This document shows, one piece after another, positions 19,014-36,345 of a stretch of 36,607 nucleotides of DNA. The first letter of the stretch is position 1. Every line of letters starts with the position of its first letter. Under the pieces are notes generated by a model. That model did not search any database, had not been told where the DNA came from, and saw nothing but the letters and a program-made list of their open reading frames with translations. The DNA comes from a virus. Location of the stretch: the IMG/VR virus record IMGVR_UViG_3300012096_000013, positions 1 through 36,607 of that record; one strand, 5' to 3'. The position numbers and the translations under genes are program-made.

Positions 19014-19493
19014 TCACTCTGGTTTCTTGAGTTCATTAAAGATCAACATTACATGGGAGCCGGTCGCTCCACAATATCCTTCATAGTATCCAGGAACATT
19101 GATATCCCAACTTTTGATAACCTGCCAAATCGCTTCAAAGAGCGGATCGTTCAATTGTTCAGGGGTTGGGTTTGGCATGACCAACATTGCCGTCTTGACT
19201 TGTATAGGGTGTGCTGGAAGTGGCCTTCCTCCTTCAAACGATTCTTTGATCTTTCTTCCCTCGTCGCTTTCCCAGTATGCCTTCCAGATCGGATCATCAG
19301 GGTTATCATAGGCTTCATAGATCGCTTGCAGCAATTGAAATGTCCGGGCTGCTGACCCCCCACTATGCCCTTGACTTGCTATAAATGCCCATGTTTCCTC
19401 TACTGACTTTCCTAGCCAGCCGTCATAATCGCTGTCCTTATCAAACAGCCCATGCGTTTCTAACCAGATATGTGCAAATTGGTTTGAGTTCAT
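19014..19493 (-). CDS. AT-rich accessory (moron-like) gene between portal and head genes
   Basis: A 159-residue soluble acidic protein, MNSNQFAHIWLETHGLFDKD at the start, with IASQGHSGGSAARTFQLLQA and PNPTPEQLNDPLFEAIWQVI later. The ATG follows AAAGGATAGAGCG. Sampled lines of this gene have about 40-50% GC while the adjoining portal gene reaches about 70% in places, suggesting later acquisition. It has no standard counterpart in the head operon. No family is recognised; a defence-evasion or lysogenic-conversion role is only a possibility. Confidence 0.6.
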   Translation of the reverse strand: MNSNQFAHIWLETHGLFDKDSDYDGWLGKSVEETWAFIASQGHSGGSAARTFQLLQAIYEAYDNPDDPIWKAYWESDEGRKIKESFEGGRPLPAHPIQVKTAMLVMPNPTPEQLNDPLFEAIWQVIKSWDINVPGYYEGYCGATGSHVMLIFNELKKPE

Positions 19494-21154: not shown

Positions 21155-22477
21155 TCAATATCCTCGGTAGCCGCTCAGGGCGGCCACGGTTGCATCGTCC
21201 AACGCTTCTAAGTTGTCTCCACCGTCAACGTGCATCACCATATACCTAGAACAGTCCATCCCATGATTGTCCTTATCAACTGGCACCTCTTTTTCTTTCT
21301 TCCCGTTGGACTCATCCCACACATAGCCGTCATACTCCTCTATGGTCGAGGCGGGAGCCTTGGTCGCATCCAAATGGGGGTCGCGCTCAACCAGGCAATC
21401 GCGAAAGTAACGGACCCCTGGTCTTCCTCGCTTGTCTGACTTCAAACGGGCCTGTACTGCCTGTATACCCAGGTTGATCGCTTTGGAGGCGGGAATCGTG
21501 TCAACCTGGGCGTGCCTGGCGAACGTCGCCCTATCTTCGGCATCGTGATCGCAGATCACCCCGATGGGCCGGGGCTCGCCAGCAGTCACTTCAACAACCT
21601 GGCGGGCGAGGTCTTCCACCAGCCGCCCGGTCATAAATATTTCATGGTAACAATACAGGTCGCCATCGTGGCTCTGCGCCCACGCCTGCCAGACAAAGGG
21701 ATTGCGGAAGCCCCAGTCAATCGCCCAGTAGCGGCGCCACAGGGGCGGTATCTCGAAGGCGTCGATAACGTGTAGGGAGGTGTCCCACATCTCGTACACC
21801 ATGCCCTCGGCGGCGGCCCATTGCCCATCGCGTAAACGTTTGCGCCGAACCCCGGTCAAGTTGTCAAGGGCGTCCTGATCCTCCTTGGTATGGGTCGGAT
21901 TATCTTTATGGCGGGACTCAAGCATCAACGTTTTGCCCTTGTCACACCTCTTTTTCAGCCAGTGGGTCGGCTTGTTCGGGTTACAATCCCCGAGCAGTTG
22001 TTGATAGGGCATGGAGTGCCATCTGAGCCGGGTTGTCAAGTCTTCCCAGTCGCCCTCGGTCAGTTCGGTCGCCTCCTGAGGATAGATCATATCCCACTCG
22101 GATGACATAATTTTCTGAGCGTCATCCAGGCCGCCGACAGCCAGTATGCTCCCGTTAGGATACTCGTACTGCTGATCGGTGACGTTGAAATGGATAATGT
22201 TGTCAAGCCAGCCCCGAGGTAACACCCTTTGTTCGTAGGTGACCATGGCGGTCTGCGTGAGGGAGCGCCGGGACTTGCGAAGCATCAGGCTCCTGGAGCC
22301 GGGATACTTGTCCATGCAATGATGGAGCTTCTCAAGGGCTCCCCGGCTTTTACCAGTGTTGGCCGGCCCGCATAACAACACCTCGCGGCGACTAGAGCGA
22401 ATAGCCTTGTATGCCGCCCCAAAAGGCTGGTAGGAAGCACGTTCCCGAGGACGGGCAAGGAGAGCCTCTCTGTTCAT
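21155..22477 (-). CDS. terL: Terminase large subunit
   Basis: A 440-residue packaging ATPase-nuclease. The ATPase half has Walker A GPANTGKS (about 37-44) and a Walker B-like WDMIYPQEATEL (about 129). The nuclease half has acidic clusters in YWAIDWGF, ICDHDAEDRATF and KDNHGMDCSRYMVM, the RNase H-like metal sites. The start overlaps the TerS stop (ATGA) and the stop abuts the portal start, so the three are probably translated together. The short length and motif set fit the large terminase_6N/Terminase_3-type enzymes; the exact class needs a search. Confidence 0.9.
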   Translation of the reverse strand: MNREALLARPRERASYQPFGAAYKAIRSSRREVLLCGPANTGKSRGALEKLHHCMDKYPGSRSLMLRKSRRSLTQTAMVTYEQRVLPRGWLDNIIHFNVTDQQYEYPNGSILAVGGLDDAQKIMSSEWDMIYPQEATELTEGDWEDLTTRLRWHSMPYQQLLGDCNPNKPTHWLKKRCDKGKTLMLESRHKDNPTHTKEDQDALDNLTGVRRKRLRDGQWAAAEGMVYEMWDTSLHVIDAFEIPPLWRRYWAIDWGFRNPFVWQAWAQSHDGDLYCYHEIFMTGRLVEDLARQVVEVTAGEPRPIGVICDHDAEDRATFARHAQVDTIPASKAINLGIQAVQARLKSDKRGRPGVRYFRDCLVERDPHLDATKAPASTIEEYDGYVWDESNGKKEKEVPVDKDNHGMDCSRYMVMHVDGGDNLEALDDATVAALSGYRGY

Positions 22478-22986
22478 GGGTCCACTCCATCCTCGGGCCA
22501 ATTGATATACTCCTTTGGCGTGGTGAGGTTAACATTGACCGCAGCCCCTTCCTTGAAGCCGGGGATGCGCCAGGACATCAGGCGCAAGAGAACGGTGTCG
22601 CTGTACTCCCGCTCTATAAGCGGTACCATGACCTTCTTCCCGCTCTTGTCCTTGACCTCGACATAGACCGGGCGGCCCATGCTGATCTTGTGGCGCTCCA
22701 CTCCCTTGACCGCTCGTTGCCAGGCGGCGGCTAGTAACATATCGTTGGCGGCCTGGTCGGCTTGATTGAGGCGGAACGAAAAGGTCTGGTCGTGTTCTTC
22801 CCAGTAACGCATGGTGTTGTAGTCGATGTTAGCTTGCATACAGGCGAGGGTCTTATTGGCGTTGAGCTTGTAACTCTCGATGAAGGTATCTTGGGCGACC
22901 AGACGGGCGGCCTTACTGAGATGGACTCCCCGAGGGCGGGTACTTGTGCGCGTAGAAGATTGAGACTTCTGAGTCATCTTACCCAT
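22474..22986 (-). CDS. terS: Terminase small subunit-like DNA-binding protein
   Basis: About 170 residues from MGKMTQKSQSS behind GGAGCGTGGCT. Residues about 30-75 (KAARLVAQDTFIESYKLNAN then CMQANIDYNTMRYWEEHDQT) look like the helix-turn-helix start typical of small terminase subunits; the rest is helical with a YSDTVLLRLMSWRIPGF motif. It lies directly before TerL with an ATGA overlap. It overlaps the end of folE by 8 bases, coupling packaging to the modification genes. A second in-frame Met nine bases on is an alternative start. Confidence 0.75.
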   Translation of the reverse strand: MGKMTQKSQSSTRTSTRPRGVHLSKAARLVAQDTFIESYKLNANKTLACMQANIDYNTMRYWEEHDQTFSFRLNQADQAANDMLLAAAWQRAVKGVERHKISMGRPVYVEVKDKSGKKVMVPLIEREYSDTVLLRLMSWRIPGFKEGAAVNVNLTTPKEYINWPEDGVDP

Positions 22987-23545
22987 AGCCACGCTCCACA
23001 AGCCGCAAGAACTCCATGCGGGCAGCATCGCGCTCCCGGAACAAGCCACGCATAACTGAGGAGGTCATTCGCCCGTTGGTCCGTATCCCGCGCATCTCCA
23101 TACATAAATGTTCACCTTGCGCCAGCACTGCGATATCACTGCTTTGGGTGACCCCGGCGATCTCGTCAGCGATCTGGTGAGTCAACCGCTCCTGCAGTTG
23201 CAATCGGTGAGCATACTTGTGGGCAATCCGAGCAAACTTCGAGAGGCCAAGCACCCGAGAGGTCGCAATGTAGCCGATAGAGATGTCACACCAGAATGGG
23301 AGTAAATGGTGTTCACACAGCGACCAGACCCGCATACCAGAAACGACTACCATTTGGTCGGTCGAGAGCGTTTCAAAGTAGGTTGTCATCGTTCCTGCGT
23401 CGTATTCGATGAACTCCCTCCACCAATCGGCAAAGCGCCGGGGTGTCTCCCAAAGTCCTTCCCGGTCAGGGTCTTCACCTATGGCGCAGAGAAGCTCGCG
23501 GGCGATATCCTTCAATGTTTCATACTTGACCAGTTCAGACCCCAC
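22979..23545 (-). CDS. folE: GTP cyclohydrolase I
   Basis: A 188-residue type I enzyme that converts GTP to 7,8-dihydroneopterin triphosphate, the first step to queuosine-type 7-deazaguanines. Motifs include SLCEHHLLPF, VLGLSKFARI, RLQLQERLTHQIAD and EHLCMEMRGIR. The zinc ligands are visible as C77, H80 and C148. Length is normal for a compact bacterial FolE. It overlaps queE by 11 bases and terS by 8. In this context it feeds QueD and QueE rather than folate synthesis. Confidence 0.95.
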   Translation of the reverse strand: MGSELVKYETLKDIARELLCAIGEDPDREGLWETPRRFADWWREFIEYDAGTMTTYFETLSTDQMVVVSGMRVWSLCEHHLLPFWCDISIGYIATSRVLGLSKFARIAHKYAHRLQLQERLTHQIADEIAGVTQSSDIAVLAQGEHLCMEMRGIRTNGRMTSSVMRGLFRERDAARMEFLRLVERGYG

Positions 23546-24230
23546 GGCGGTTACCCCATAACAAGGTGTGAAGTTGAGGCAATACGGTTACATCGTTCCA
23601 CTGGTCGGCCTTCACCAGTTCGATGAGCCAGGCGAGTTTGCCCAACACGCTCGCCATATCAAAGGACTTGCCGACGGTTTCGTTGCCGGGCTGCAAATAG
23701 AAGGGTATCCCGGGATACCGGGAGGCGACCGACCTGGCGAACATATAGTCGGCCTCGTCGAACACAACGACCTTGATGATAACAACAGCCCCGGTAGAGA
23801 AGCACCAATCAAGCCGGTCCATGCGTTGACTCATCCCCGAGCTTGGAGGCTTGGGCGAGAGAGTAAGGTAGTCAAGCCAGCGCATCCAGGGCTTCATAAT
23901 GCTGCCTTGCGTCTCCAGCGCAAAGGTGTAGCCCGCCTGGTGACCCATATCCACCAACGGGCCAAAGGGCTGCATGGCCGGGTTACCCCCCGAGAGAGTG
24001 ACCAGGATGGGCAAAGGGGATAACTCCCGGACCTTTGCGAACACCTGTTCGGGGCTCATCTTGACCCACTCATCTTTATATTTGGGAAGGACCGCGTACA
24101 GGGTATCGCACCAGGAGCAACGGAAGTCACAGCCCCCGGCCCGGACGAACACGGTGGGCTTGCCGATCAGGGCTCCTTCGCCCTGTATCGTGATTCCAAA
24201 TATTTCGCTGATGTTCAACGTCTCAATCAT
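23535..24230 (-). CDS. queE: 7-carboxy-7-deazaguanine synthase (radical SAM)
   Basis: A 231-residue radical SAM enzyme converting 6-carboxytetrahydropterin to 7-carboxy-7-deazaguanine (CDG). The cluster motif CDFRCSWCDT (C34, C38, C41; CX3CX2C) is intact, preceded by TIQGEGALIGKPTVFVR and followed by LSGGNPAMQP and ALETQGS, all QueE hallmarks. The start overlaps the queD stop by ATGA. The gene is complete and of normal size. Confidence 0.95.
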   Translation of the reverse strand: MIETLNISEIFGITIQGEGALIGKPTVFVRAGGCDFRCSWCDTLYAVLPKYKDEWVKMSPEQVFAKVRELSPLPILVTLSGGNPAMQPFGPLVDMGHQAGYTFALETQGSIMKPWMRWLDYLTLSPKPPSSGMSQRMDRLDWCFSTGAVVIIKVVVFDEADYMFARSVASRYPGIPFYLQPGNETVGKSFDMASVLGKLAWLIELVKADQWNDVTVLPQLHTLLWGNRRGV

Positions 24231-24595
24231 GGTTGAGTGTACTCCGCAAACGTTGACGGTGTTTCATGGACCCGGACGGTGATAAGAATATTCTCCGGCC
24301 TGTACAGTTCGGCGGCCACGTCCCACAGGTACTCGGCGATCCGCTCCGCCGTCGGCATCTCCATGCGGTCGTTGAGGTGGCGATGGTCCAGGGTCTCATA
24401 AATGTGTTTGGCAAAGGGAGCCATCTCGTTGTAGTCCAGGACGAAGCCCCGGCGATCAAGGGCGTGGCTGCACAAGATCAACTCGACCGTGTAGTTATGG
24501 CCGTGGAGCCTCTTGCAGGGGTGACCATCGGGCAAGTGGACGAGCTGGTGACTGGCGCTGAAATGAAATTGCTTGCCTATGGTGTACATCACCAT
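24227..24595 (-). CDS. queD: 6-carboxy-5,6,7,8-tetrahydropterin synthase
   Basis: A 122-residue T-fold enzyme that turns dihydroneopterin triphosphate into 6-carboxytetrahydropterin. All key residues are visible: zinc ligands H16 (FSASHQL), H31 and H33 (LHGHNY), catalytic C27 in HPCKRLHGH, the DH pair in LDHRHLND, and E111 in VRVHET. The PTAERIAEYL motif is also present. It overlaps queE (ATGA) and the QueD-like gene before it. It is a normal, active-looking QueD, which makes the neighbouring divergent paralogue more notable. Confidence 0.94.
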   Translation of the reverse strand: MVMYTIGKQFHFSASHQLVHLPDGHPCKRLHGHNYTVELILCSHALDRRGFVLDYNEMAPFAKHIYETLDHRHLNDRMEMPTAERIAEYLWDVAAELYRPENILITVRVHETPSTFAEYTQP

Positions 24596-24951
24596 ACCTC
24601 CTTATCTGAGGTGTAGAAGTTTGCCTGGGCTCCCACTTCGTTATCCTCAAAAACAGAGACCGACACACATCGGCGTGGGTACCGCTCGGCGACCAGGGCG
24701 ACCAGGGAGGCGGCCATGGTTTCGCAGGAAGCCGAACCCATCTCTCCTCCCGGAAAGCACTCTTGACAGTAGTCCAGCAGGTCGTGATACTCAATCTCGC
24801 GCTCCTTATGCAACACCTCCACCCGGACCTCGACATAAAACACATGTCGATGCCGGGCTGCCAGATATGCCCGTTTGCCGGTTGCCTCGGGCCAGCAGTG
24901 AAAGCCCTCTCGAGTGAAGGTGACAATGGCCTCAAGTTCAATTCTTGACAT
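24589..24951 (-). CDS. QueD-fold paralogue with altered active site
   Basis: A 120-residue protein from MSRIELEAIVTFTREGFHCW, behind GGAGGCCACGA. It follows the QueD pattern: H18 (FHCW) and H34/H36 (ARHRHVF) could form the zinc triad, EIEYHDLLDY replaces the VLDYNEMA strand, and SCETMAASLVALV replaces PTAERIAEYL. The QueD catalytic Cys that lies four residues before HGH is absent (Leu here), and the DHRHLND diad is missing. So it is probably not a second QueD. Placed between dpdA and queD in one operon, it is a candidate for a deazaguanine-tailoring enzyme, for example CDG decarboxylase (DpdL-like). That function is inference. Confidence 0.65.
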   Translation of the reverse strand: MSRIELEAIVTFTREGFHCWPEATGKRAYLAARHRHVFYVEVRVEVLHKEREIEYHDLLDYCQECFPGGEMGSASCETMAASLVALVAERYPRRCVSVSVFEDNEVGAQANFYTSDKEVW

Positions 24952-26008
24952 TCGTGGCCTCCAATCCTTTAAGGGGGGGCGGGTAGGTCGCAAAGCCCAT
25001 ACGCGCCAGTTCTGATACATAGCCCTGCCAGGTCAGCCCGTCGAGATGGTGGGTATAGCCGCACACGGCGACCGCGTGTTTGGAGCCTCCAAGATCGTCA
25101 GAGGTCGCCCCATCCTTGGTCAATACATAACGATACTCAGGCCCCATCAATCCATTGACCGCGCCCATGCACCGGGACGGGTAGCGAGGCCAGCGAACAG
25201 GGTGGAGCCAGGATGAGGTGTCGCAACTGTTGAGAGGCAAGGAGTATAACCAGGAATGGAGTTGAAGCCCCAGGACATGGATCCACAGATGGGGGTATTT
25301 TCGGTGGCGCTCCCAAGCGGTCGCAATGAGGCGCTTGCGGGTGGCATCTTTTGCGTTGACGATGTTGCCGAAGCAGATACGATCATACCGCTCTGCCAGG
25401 TAGTCGAAATAGTCCCACCCGTCGTTTAAGGGATGATACACCGGGATGGGATGGAGGCCGAGGGCTTCCAACCGGGCGCGCGTTTTGATCTTGTTCTCCC
25501 GGCCTCCCTGGTCAATCTCGATATAGCCCCATAGGCACTCATCGAGAGCGTGGACGATGGAAACGTAGCGGGTGAACAGGTTTTCGAAGCCTTCCATCTC
25601 GGAGGGAGCAAACGAAAGCGCCTGGTCCATCGAGAGGTCGTGGGTAAGGGCGTACTGGGTGGCAAAGTTGTAGACCCCCGAATCCAGAAATATCTTTTTC
25701 TCAGGGTCATCGACAAACCAGCTTCTGACCATGGCAAGGTCAGCATCGCCGTAGTCAAGCTCGTTGACCGCTATAAGCAGGTTTTTCGCGACGGGTATGA
25801 TCATCTTCATACGGTCCGGGCCGGAGGCCAGGAAGTACAGAGGAGGGCCGTCCGGGTCATAGGTCGCCCCGGCGGTCTTCTGAATCTGGATCGTCGGCTG
25901 AGTCTGAGTCGTCGGTATCTTCGTCTTCTTCTTCGGACTGGACAAGGTTGAAAGCCCCCGCTTTCCAAACGGATTGTTGGCCGTGGACCTCAGCATAGCG
26001 GTCAACAA
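24938..26008 (-). CDS. dpdA: DpdA-type DNA guanine transglycosylase
   Basis: Up to 356 residues; a TGT-like enzyme predicted to exchange guanine in phage DNA for a 7-deazaguanine. Visible family features: PPLYFLASGPDR (about 55-66), KKIFLDSGVYNF (Asp109 at the DSGG position of TGTs), WGYIEIDQGG (about 160-169), HPIPVYHPLND, YDRICFGNIV, WIHVLGLQ and CDTSSWLHPVRW (D263-T-S-S-W). The TGT zinc-binding CxCxxC site is not seen, as in other DNA-type enzymes. The first 45 residues are low-complexity and overlap the ParB-like gene by 150 bases, so the true start is uncertain. It stands next to folE/queD/queE, which supply substrate. Confidence 0.85.
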   Translation of the reverse strand: MLTAMLRSTANNPFGKRGLSTLSSPKKKTKIPTTQTQPTIQIQKTAGATYDPDGPPLYFLASGPDRMKMIIPVAKNLLIAVNELDYGDADLAMVRSWFVDDPEKKIFLDSGVYNFATQYALTHDLSMDQALSFAPSEMEGFENLFTRYVSIVHALDECLWGYIEIDQGGRENKIKTRARLEALGLHPIPVYHPLNDGWDYFDYLAERYDRICFGNIVNAKDATRKRLIATAWERHRKYPHLWIHVLGLQLHSWLYSLPLNSCDTSSWLHPVRWPRYPSRCMGAVNGLMGPEYRYVLTKDGATSDDLGGSKHAVAVCGYTHHLDGLTWQGYVSELARMGFATYPPPLKGLEATNVKN

Positions 26009-26765
26009 CGTGGCCGGCTATGTAGGGGTCGGGCTGGACGAGTACAAGGATATGGGTATCGGCGTTTTGGGAGAGAGCGCAGAGCGGCCCGGCAAAGGGC
26101 AAGAACAGGGAGTTCTCCCCTTTGAGGTACCGGGTCCACAACGACCAGTCACGGAAGACGTGAGCGCAAATCAAAAAGTGATTATCGAGCGCCCACACCT
26201 CGCCCCGAGCAACCGGGTGAATTGGCTCGGCCAGGGTGACATGGAGTAAGGCTAAGAGTTGCCCCTTGTTCGGTCCGGTCTCTACCACGTCCTCGGCTCC
26301 CGGGTCGGGCTCAGCCTCCTCCTCCTGTAAGCCGTTGATCATCTCTTGGAGCGCCTTGTCATCGTAGCCCATCGAGAGCAGGTCATACCCGGCGTCTCGT
26401 TGTTCTTGGAGGAGCCCGGAAAGTTGGTCGGTATCATCCTCGGTGTGGTCGGCAAGTGCGTTGTCAGCGATGAGGTACCCTTTTACCTGGCCGGGAGTCC
26501 AGTCGGCGGGGAGGATGTCGGCCCGAAGCTCGCGCCATTTCATGCGGCGGGCGGCCTCCACGACGCCATGACCGGCTACCAGTAAGAGGTGTTCGGGTCC
26601 ATCTTGACACACGATAGAGCGGGCTTGACCAAACCGGGTCAGCGAGGCGATGAGGCCTTTTATTTGAAATTCGTTATGAGTGCGGTAGTTCTCAGGATGA
26701 GCGACAAGCCGCGCAAGGGAGACGATCTCGTTGGCTTTAATATGAGTGGTCGCGATCTGCTGCAT
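25857..26765 (-). CDS. ParB-like domain protein with degenerate methyltransferase-like C-terminus
   Basis: A 302-residue protein from MQQIATTHIKANEIV, behind AGAGG. Residues about 1-140 are a ParB/Srx-type domain: LVAHPENYRTHNEFQIKGLI, LLLVAGHGVVEAARRM and LIADNALADHTEDD. Residues about 195-275 follow the layout of the DNA methylase fused to ParB in many phages (ARGEVWALDNHFLICAHVFR; VLVQPDPYIAGHVVDRY), but the catalytic DPPY and FxGxG motifs are gone and the region is short. It may bind DNA without methylating it. It opens the deazaguanine operon and overlaps dpdA; the tail is acidic (SEEEDEDTDDSDSADD). A targeting or accessory role for DpdA is inferred. Confidence 0.7.
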   Translation of the reverse strand: MQQIATTHIKANEIVSLARLVAHPENYRTHNEFQIKGLIASLTRFGQARSIVCQDGPEHLLLVAGHGVVEAARRMKWRELRADILPADWTPGQVKGYLIADNALADHTEDDTDQLSGLLQEQRDAGYDLLSMGYDDKALQEMINGLQEEEAEPDPGAEDVVETGPNKGQLLALLHVTLAEPIHPVARGEVWALDNHFLICAHVFRDWSLWTRYLKGENSLFLPFAGPLCALSQNADTHILVLVQPDPYIAGHVVDRYAEVHGQQSVWKAGAFNLVQSEEEDEDTDDSDSADDPDSEDRRGDL

Positions 26766-26837
26766 ACAAACCTCTTTGCAAGGGGGCCGCTGAAAACGCG
26801 CCCCATGGCCGTGTACAGCATATCCCTCCCACTTGCA

Positions 26838-26866
26838 ATAGTAGCACATGTAGAACAGGCAATCAA
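26838..26866 (-). promoter_or_regulatory. Extended -10 promoter of the modification/packaging operon
   Basis: On the minus strand TTGATT, 17 bases, then TACTAT preceded by TGC (extended -10). It lies just after the intrinsic terminator and about 65 bases before the ParB-like gene, with no gene between. It would drive parB-like, dpdA, que genes, folE and the packaging genes. Confidence 0.65.
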
Positions 26867-26895: not shown

Positions 26896-26928
26896 AAAAA
26901 AAGGCCGGGAACCTTTCGGCTCCCGGCC
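26896..26928 (-). terminator. Strong intrinsic terminator closing the early operon
   Basis: Minus strand: GGCCGGGA pairs with TCCCGGCC, with a G-T and two C-G pairs inside closing a GAAA tetraloop (11-bp stem), immediately followed by TTTTTTT and, after a few bases, another seven Ts. It follows the stop of the 68-residue gene at 26950 and precedes the next promoter. Confidence 0.92.
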
Positions 26929-35409: not shown

Positions 35410-36345
35410 CTAGACTTGGGTCCCTTCCGATTTCCGATAGAGAGCCAGGACATCCAGGCTCCCAAACTTCCTCAAGTAGCCTTCCGTCGTGCTGATATGC
35501 TCATGTCCAAGGAGCTTCTGCAGGAGGAAGATGTTTCCGTTGGCAAGCATAAAATTCCTGGCAAACGTATGGCGGAACACATGCGGCCTCACATTCACCC
35601 CCGAGAGCCCGGCAAAGGCCGCCAGGCGGTGAAGCACATCTTCCAAACCGGCCACGGTTAAGGCCTCTTTGCCCGCTCGCGTCACGAACAACGGGAAGCC
35701 CGGGGAGGCCGCGAACTGCCGCTCCTGGTGGATATACTTGTGCAAGAGCCGCCGGGTCGGCGTGTCCAGGGGCAACAGCCGTTCCTTCTGGCCCTTCCCA
35801 AGCACCTTGATATAGGACTCGTCCGGGCTGAGATGGGTATTGCCAAGGGTCAGCCCGCACAACTCGGAGGCTCGTATCCCCGTCGTGAATAGGACGGTGA
35901 TAATCACCTCGTCGCGCAGCTTCAACATCTCGTTATAGTTTCGCTTGGCCGCCTCCCGCAAGGCTGCAACTTGCGCGTCCGAGAGCGTCTCGATGACGTT
36001 CCCGCCCGTCTTTGGCACCTTGATGCGCCGGGGTAAGATCGGTTTCACATAGTCACCGTACTCGTCATCCTGGCTGCACCAATTGAGAAAGGCCTTCACG
36101 ACCCTGATATAGCCTGCCAGGGTATCCCCCGAGAGCGGAGAGCCCGCATGGTGGGAATGATGAGAACTGGCTAGATGCGTAACGAACAGGTCAATCGTCT
36201 TGGGGCGAATGCCCTCAAGGGTGATTTGGGCCACATGGCACCAGGATACAAACACGCCCAGGCGTTGGGTATAGCCTATCCTACTCTTGGGGCGCAACCG
36301 TAAGAGCGAGGCAAGGTATTCATCGGCAGCATCCTTAATGTCCAT
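35410..36345 (-). CDS. int: Tyrosine recombinase/integrase
   Basis: A 311-residue site-specific recombinase. The N-terminal 110 residues are a SAM-like core-binding domain (MDIKDAADEYLASLLRLRPK, SGDTLAGYIRVVKAFLNWCS). The catalytic residues are visible: R158 (TTGIRASELCG), K184 or so (VLGKGQKERLLPL), H255 and R258 (HVFRHTFARNF), H281 (LGHEHISTTEGY) and the nucleophile Y290. All are intact, so the enzyme should be active. It is the first gene of the int/xis/ftsK operon. Family resemblance is to phage/ICE tyrosine recombinases of the XerC/D type; the attachment site is not identified. Confidence 0.92.
   Translation of the reverse strand: MDIKDAADEYLASLLRLRPKSRIGYTQRLGVFVSWCHVAQITLEGIRPKTIDLFVTHLASSHHSHHAGSPLSGDTLAGYIRVVKAFLNWCSQDDEYGDYVKPILPRRIKVPKTGGNVIETLSDAQVAALREAAKRNYNEMLKLRDEVIITVLFTTGIRASELCGLTLGNTHLSPDESYIKVLGKGQKERLLPLDTPTRRLLHKYIHQERQFAASPGFPLFVTRAGKEALTVAGLEDVLHRLAAFAGLSGVNVRPHVFRHTFARNFMLANGNIFLLQKLLGHEHISTTEGYLRKFGSLDVLALYRKSEGTQV

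Follow-up and report, generated by a model that had tools for sequence, protein, structure and literature searches.

The 36,607-bp IMG/VR record IMGVR_UViG_3300012096_000013 (linear and possibly incomplete; the whole record is referred to as the window) carries on its minus strand a DNA-modification cassette of a known kind, in which queC is replaced by the gene of a small protein with a predicted QueD fold, here called QD2. FolE, QueD and QueE convert GTP to CDG (7-carboxy-7-deazaguanine). We consider it probable that the cassette modifies the phage DNA and that QD2 stands in for QueC on CDG; its product, probably formed by decarboxylation, would be 7-deazaguanine, to be inserted by DpdA. The first-pass annotation had placed folE, queD and queE in one chain with a dpdA-type gene, and profile matches (PF01227, PF01242, TIGR03365 and phrog_887) bear this out. 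It had also reported that queC is absent; a search for PF06508 across the entire record, linear and perhaps incomplete as it is, indeed gives no match. The genes were correctly named, but the sixth, QD2 (24589-24951), was overlooked, and a ParB-like gene also belongs to the cluster.

QueC exclusion and the shared slot

The comparison set consists of 80 IMG/VR records picked on DpdA similarity alone, which were screened over their full length for QueC (PF06508) and QD2. QD2 is present in 43 and QueC in four of the first 50 records, and in 22 and two, respectively, of the remaining 30, with no record holding both in either set. For the pooled records (QD2 65, QueC 6, both 0), the hypergeometric chance of zero overlap is 1.7e-5, a value that is indicative, as the records are mutually related and most of the viral ones are fragmentary. 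QD2 occurs together with FolE, QueD and QueE and without QueC, and dpdA is immediately followed by it at about 60 of the 66 loci. In three of the six QueC carriers (L031, L033 and L059), QueC begins within a few bases of the dpdA end, the usual place of QD2; in the other three, it is not the next gene after dpdA. The QueC carriers are found at four separate places in the DpdA tree, at least two of which are forced by well-supported branches. Among the cultured phages with QD2, none has QueC above the cut-off.

Among the closest known arrangements is that of Rosebushvirus, for which the gene order comes from Godines (ParB-DpdA-QueC-QueD-QueE-FolE-TerL) and the chemistry from Rosebush of the same genus, whose DNA carries dPreQ0 at about 28% of G (PMC6884629). 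The window has the same succession (ParB-DpdA-[slot]-QueD-QueE-FolE-terminase), but the slot holds QD2 where Rosebushvirus has QueC, and the DpdA proteins are only distantly related. QueC within the cassette is the mark of the dPreQ0 type (Rosebush, CAjan), and the window lacks it. The "missing" queC is a gene replacement at one slot. Cultured phages were also searched for a relative of the cassette at the DNA level, and none was found. Two further searches were discarded: the pattern matches from a single-protein QueE search of IMG/VR turned out not to be relatives, and conservation was too low for a degenerate search with QD2 alignment A1.

Relatives of the cassette are also present in bacterial assemblies, namely, Amycolatopsis (three), Streptomyces (one), Bradyrhizobium (one) and metagenome-assembled genomes (MAGs; two). 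The four actinomycete carriers have the complete cassette with all six genes. A search of these four for full-length QueC and TGT found neither, only partial PF06508 matches that cover about 60 of the 210 positions and lie in long open reading frames, as would be expected of other ATP-pyrophosphatases. The pathway there therefore does not run via host QueC and does not serve tRNA queuosine. The Bradyrhizobium carrier has full-length QueC and TGT, and its cassette nonetheless holds QD2.

QD2, its partners and the slot-3 protein

QD2 matches phrog_17812, a family of unannotated function. No Pfam match rises over its cut-off; a Zn_ribbon_2 match (E 0.06-0.07) was weak and rejected as chance. In profile comparison (hhalign), QD2 aligns with QueD (probability 95.5, E=1.5e-8), as against E values of 0.04-0.36 with FolE, QueE, ParB and DpdA. 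Sequence searches of the PDB with the QD2 and DpdA profiles returned no match, so the assignment of QD2 is carried by fold comparison. The AlphaFold2 model (mean pLDDT 91) has Escherichia coli QueD as its best PDB match (Foldseek probability 1.00, TM about 0.7). Like that enzyme (4ntk; QueD/PTPS family), QD2 has the predicted T-fold, the three zinc histidines in the H...HxH arrangement and a Glu near the C-terminus. Unlike it, QD2 lacks the catalytic Cys before HxH and the Asp-His pair; the Cys position is an invariant Leu in 54 homologues, and a true QueD stands separately in the window operon. The invariant residues of QD2 are H18, H34, H36, S75-C76-E77 and E102 in protein numbering; in the numbering of the aligned domain (protein minus 8), the residues that never change among the 54 homologues are H10, H26, H28, R43, E46, S67-C68-E69 and E94. 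Judged from sequence and model, QD2 is predicted to be a paralogue of QueD and not a QueD enzyme: its active site is conserved, but the catalytic residues of QueD itself are missing. In Chryseobacterium phage MA9V-3 (L009:7428-8312), a 294-residue open reading frame has the QD2 domain at its C-terminus and an HNH endonuclease-like N-terminal half.

The window DpdA keeps the DSG motif, the E/D position, the catalytic Asp and the equivalent of His196 of phage 9g DpdA, a residue present in the 9g protein and absent from DpdA2 (PMC6884629); the aligned His is invariant (19/19), which on this residue places the protein with DpdA1. The core is homologous to that of the DpdA of Enterobacteria phage 9g, but the alignment to the family profile extends over no more than about 110 residues, and the operon partners differ. 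Neither DpdA nor QD2 gave a hit in PADLOC and NCBIfam scans. The window has no ATG, GTG or TTG where the relatives of its DpdA start (region 25855-26008); DpdA must be translated either from a start farther upstream, within the ParB gene (nearest ATG 25996, TTG 26008), or from a rare start codon. The ParB-like gene is the first cassette gene in nearly all relatives and belongs to the conserved cassette. The methyltransferase-like tail of its product lacks the catalytic DPPY, a PYPGPF-type motif being conserved there instead (about 50 loci). The ParB-like protein may guide DpdA to DNA as its DNA-targeting partner.

The records with neither QD2 nor QueC are either truncated contigs or have a different protein, some 130 residues long and here called slot-3, next after dpdA (L043, L058, L103 and L119); L116 has slot-3 after dpdA plus a distant QueC. 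Slot-3 is gene 4 of the mycobacteriophages Bipper and Typha, located between dpdA and queD. No PHROG family matches it at E < 0.01, and its sequence similarity is weak to QueD (probability 12.5) and nil to QD2. For the protein of L116, the best matches of the AlphaFold2 model (pLDDT 82) are PTPS/QueD structures (probability 1.00, E about 1e-3). The Bipper and Typha cassettes share with the window the gene order, ParB, DpdA, QueD, QueE and FolE, and the lack of QueC (a PF06508 search of Bipper, where this was checked, gave no match), but their slot is filled by this sequence-unrelated protein of QueD-like predicted fold. According to Hutinet et al. 2019 (PMC6884629), QueC is all that Mycobacterium phage Bipper lacks, and the phage may carry CDG. 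We tentatively suggest, as a reasonable possibility, that the slot after dpdA is interchangeable and sets the inserted base: QueC would give preQ0, and QD2 or slot-3, each a QueD-fold family, would tailor CDG in its own way. Slot-3 would then represent a CDG-tailoring enzyme not described before: it could be a second decarboxylase of independent origin, or it could make a base that is not yet known.

QD2 is also found in the large phages ACP17, X1, PA5oct and BUCT-ZZ01, where, as in the window, it lies beside or near folE/queE and TGT-like genes and no QueC scores over the cut-off. These phages differ from the window in that their TGT-like genes are of another family and in having glycosyltransferase-like neighbours, which the window cassette does not have. 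Such genes adjoin or lie near QD2 in L001, L003, L004, L005 and L007 (X1, ACP17, Phosso, PA5oct and BUCT-ZZ01), and there the base, once inserted, may receive further decoration.

Layout of the window

On the minus strand, the terminator is followed by the genes for the ParB-like protein, DpdA, QD2, QueD, QueE and FolE and then by those for the small and large terminase subunits (Table 1). This strong intrinsic terminator isolates the cassette from the upstream gene. The first-pass annotation had given the cluster its own promoter, which we could not establish: the candidate matches 8/12 consensus positions, under the scan threshold of 9/12, and the region holds four promoter-like sites as compared to 2.0 +/- 1.5 in shuffles, no clear excess. 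Its statement that the catalytic residues are intact holds for QueD (Cys24, His28, Asp67-His68 and Glu108 are invariant) and QueE, whose residues were checked, while FolE is supported by its full-length Pfam score. QueF matches to FolE (E 0.04 and 0.0095) were far below the cut-offs and were rejected. The nearest relatives of the window TerL are those of Thermobifida and Streptomyces phages (47% identity), and the tyrosine integrase suggests a temperate phage. Amid the head genes, the region 19014-19493 has a Pfam match to Tad3, the type I Thoeris inhibitor (E=8.5e-7; 29.2 bits, barely above the cut-off of 27).

Table 1. Features of the window and loci of the slot-3 protein in other records
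Feature	Position	Strand	Evidence and remarks
Intrinsic terminator	26903..26928	-	GAAA loop on a long G+C-rich stem, 7 T; -30.1 kcal/mol vs -14 +/- 2.9 shuffled, z -5.5; unique match
Candidate promoter TTGATT-17-TACTAT	26838..26866	-	TG in front (extended -10); not established
ParB-like protein, 302 aa	25857..26765	-	phrog_620 E=2e-25; phrog_498 E=2e-25
DpdA-type DNA-guanine transglycosylase	24938..25855	-	phrog_887 E=1.7e-19; 5' end uncertain
QD2, 120 aa, predicted QueD fold, in QueC slot; candidate CDG decarboxylase	24589..24951	-	phrog_17812 E=7e-15
QueD (6-carboxytetrahydropterin synthase)	24227..24595	-	PF01242 E=2e-30; TIGR03367 86.3 bits, slightly below cut-off 89.25
QueE	23535..24230	-	TIGR03365 309.8 bits, cut-off 206.1; CX3CX2C intact
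FolE (GTP cyclohydrolase I)	22979..23545	-	PF01227 E=4e-55; above Pfam cut-off, full length
Terminase small subunit	22474..23049	-	phrog_4044 E=3.5e-19; directly downstream of folE
Terminase large subunit	21155..22501	-	phrog_2 E=3e-33
Tyrosine integrase	35410-36345	-	PF00589 E=6.5e-26
Slot-3 protein	L116:10882-11289
Slot-3 protein	L119:2732-3139
Slot-3 protein	L058:10933-11349
Slot-3 protein	L103:1669-2058
Slot-3 protein	L043:4838-5230
Slot-3 protein	L123:2047-2472		Bipper gene 4

Proposed pathway and its alternatives

In the proposed pathway, FolE, QueD and QueE would supply CDG from GTP, and QD2 would take it at the step held by QueC in the sister cassettes. Any substitute for QueC has to act on CDG or render it usable, and a decarboxylase yielding 7-deazaguanine would be in keeping with a zinc T-fold protein this small and free of cofactor domains. 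QD2 has preserved its zinc site and also the Glu that binds the substrate; most likely it would decarboxylate CDG to 7-deazaguanine. DpdA, probably aided by the ParB-like protein, would then swap this product for guanine in DNA to give dDG, which would protect the phage DNA from restriction. A phage CDG decarboxylase, the DpdL of Cui et al. 2023, reportedly gives dDG in QueC-less phages. QD2 may be this same DpdL. Cellulophaga phage phiST, reportedly among the phages of that study, has QD2 and lacks QueC.

Several points weigh against decarboxylation by QD2. It is deduced from the pathway position and the reported activity of DpdL, not from the sequence itself; the modification in the window phage is predicted from its genes; and the viral records are mostly fragments. 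In Faecalibacterium phage Roos (L006, 7288-9884), the stretch read holds ParB, QD2, DpdA and a YhhQ-like transporter but no folE, queD or queE, and QD2 may sometimes, as there, work on an imported base or precursor.

It is unlikely that CDG itself is inserted (dCDG), with QD2 carrying or delivering CDG to DpdA or capping it non-catalytically. The FolE-QueD-QueE route does stop at CDG, the base proposed for QueC-less Bipper by Hutinet et al. 2019 (PMC6884629), but a cassette stopping at this point needs no enzyme in the QueC slot, and the invariance of the zinc ligands and the Arg, Glu and Ser-Cys-Glu residues in 54 QD2 sequences points to catalysis. The first-pass annotation had offered either a CDG- or deazaguanine-like base, which stands, or a base made with host QueC, which is disfavoured. 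We regard it as decidedly unlikely that host QueC turns CDG into preQ0 for insertion by DpdA, QD2 having a different role. Although full-length QueC and TGT are present in some carriers (Bradyrhizobium, and the L062 and L067 MAGs), the actinomycete carriers have complete cassettes in spite of lacking both, and QD2 and QueC exclude each other across the 80 records and share one slot. Conversion of CDG by QD2 to some other 7-substituted base, which DpdA would insert in place of 7-deazaguanine, appears very improbable. The data fix the pathway position only, a QueD-fold zinc site could support different chemistry, and a second QueD-fold family, slot-3, occupies the same slot in other phages; however, the 120 residues of QD2 show no evident cofactor domain or second substrate site, and decarboxylation needs none. 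That there is no DNA modification at all, the genes raising host tRNA queuosine (as put forward for phages with pathway genes but without DpdA; Hutinet et al. 2019, PMC6884629) or belonging to a decayed pathway, is scarcely credible, given that DpdA is conserved in the cassette with its active site, reading frames are unbroken for QD2 and the synthesis genes alike in the window and its relatives, and queuosine synthesis is impossible in the four carriers without TGT and QueC.

A queC-less cassette is not new as such (Bipper; Hutinet et al. 2019, PMC6884629); the new point is the proposed interchangeable slot. A vague absence of queC is thereby narrowed to a one-gene hypothesis, and the unannotated family phrog_17812 gains a candidate function. 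The rule that the slot gene sets the base is testable in cultured phages with QueC (Rosebush/Godines), slot-3 (Bipper/Typha) and QD2 (phiST/ACP17). QD2 could explain the QueC-less 7-deazaguanine pathway in many phages, including those whose hosts have no queuosine pathway.

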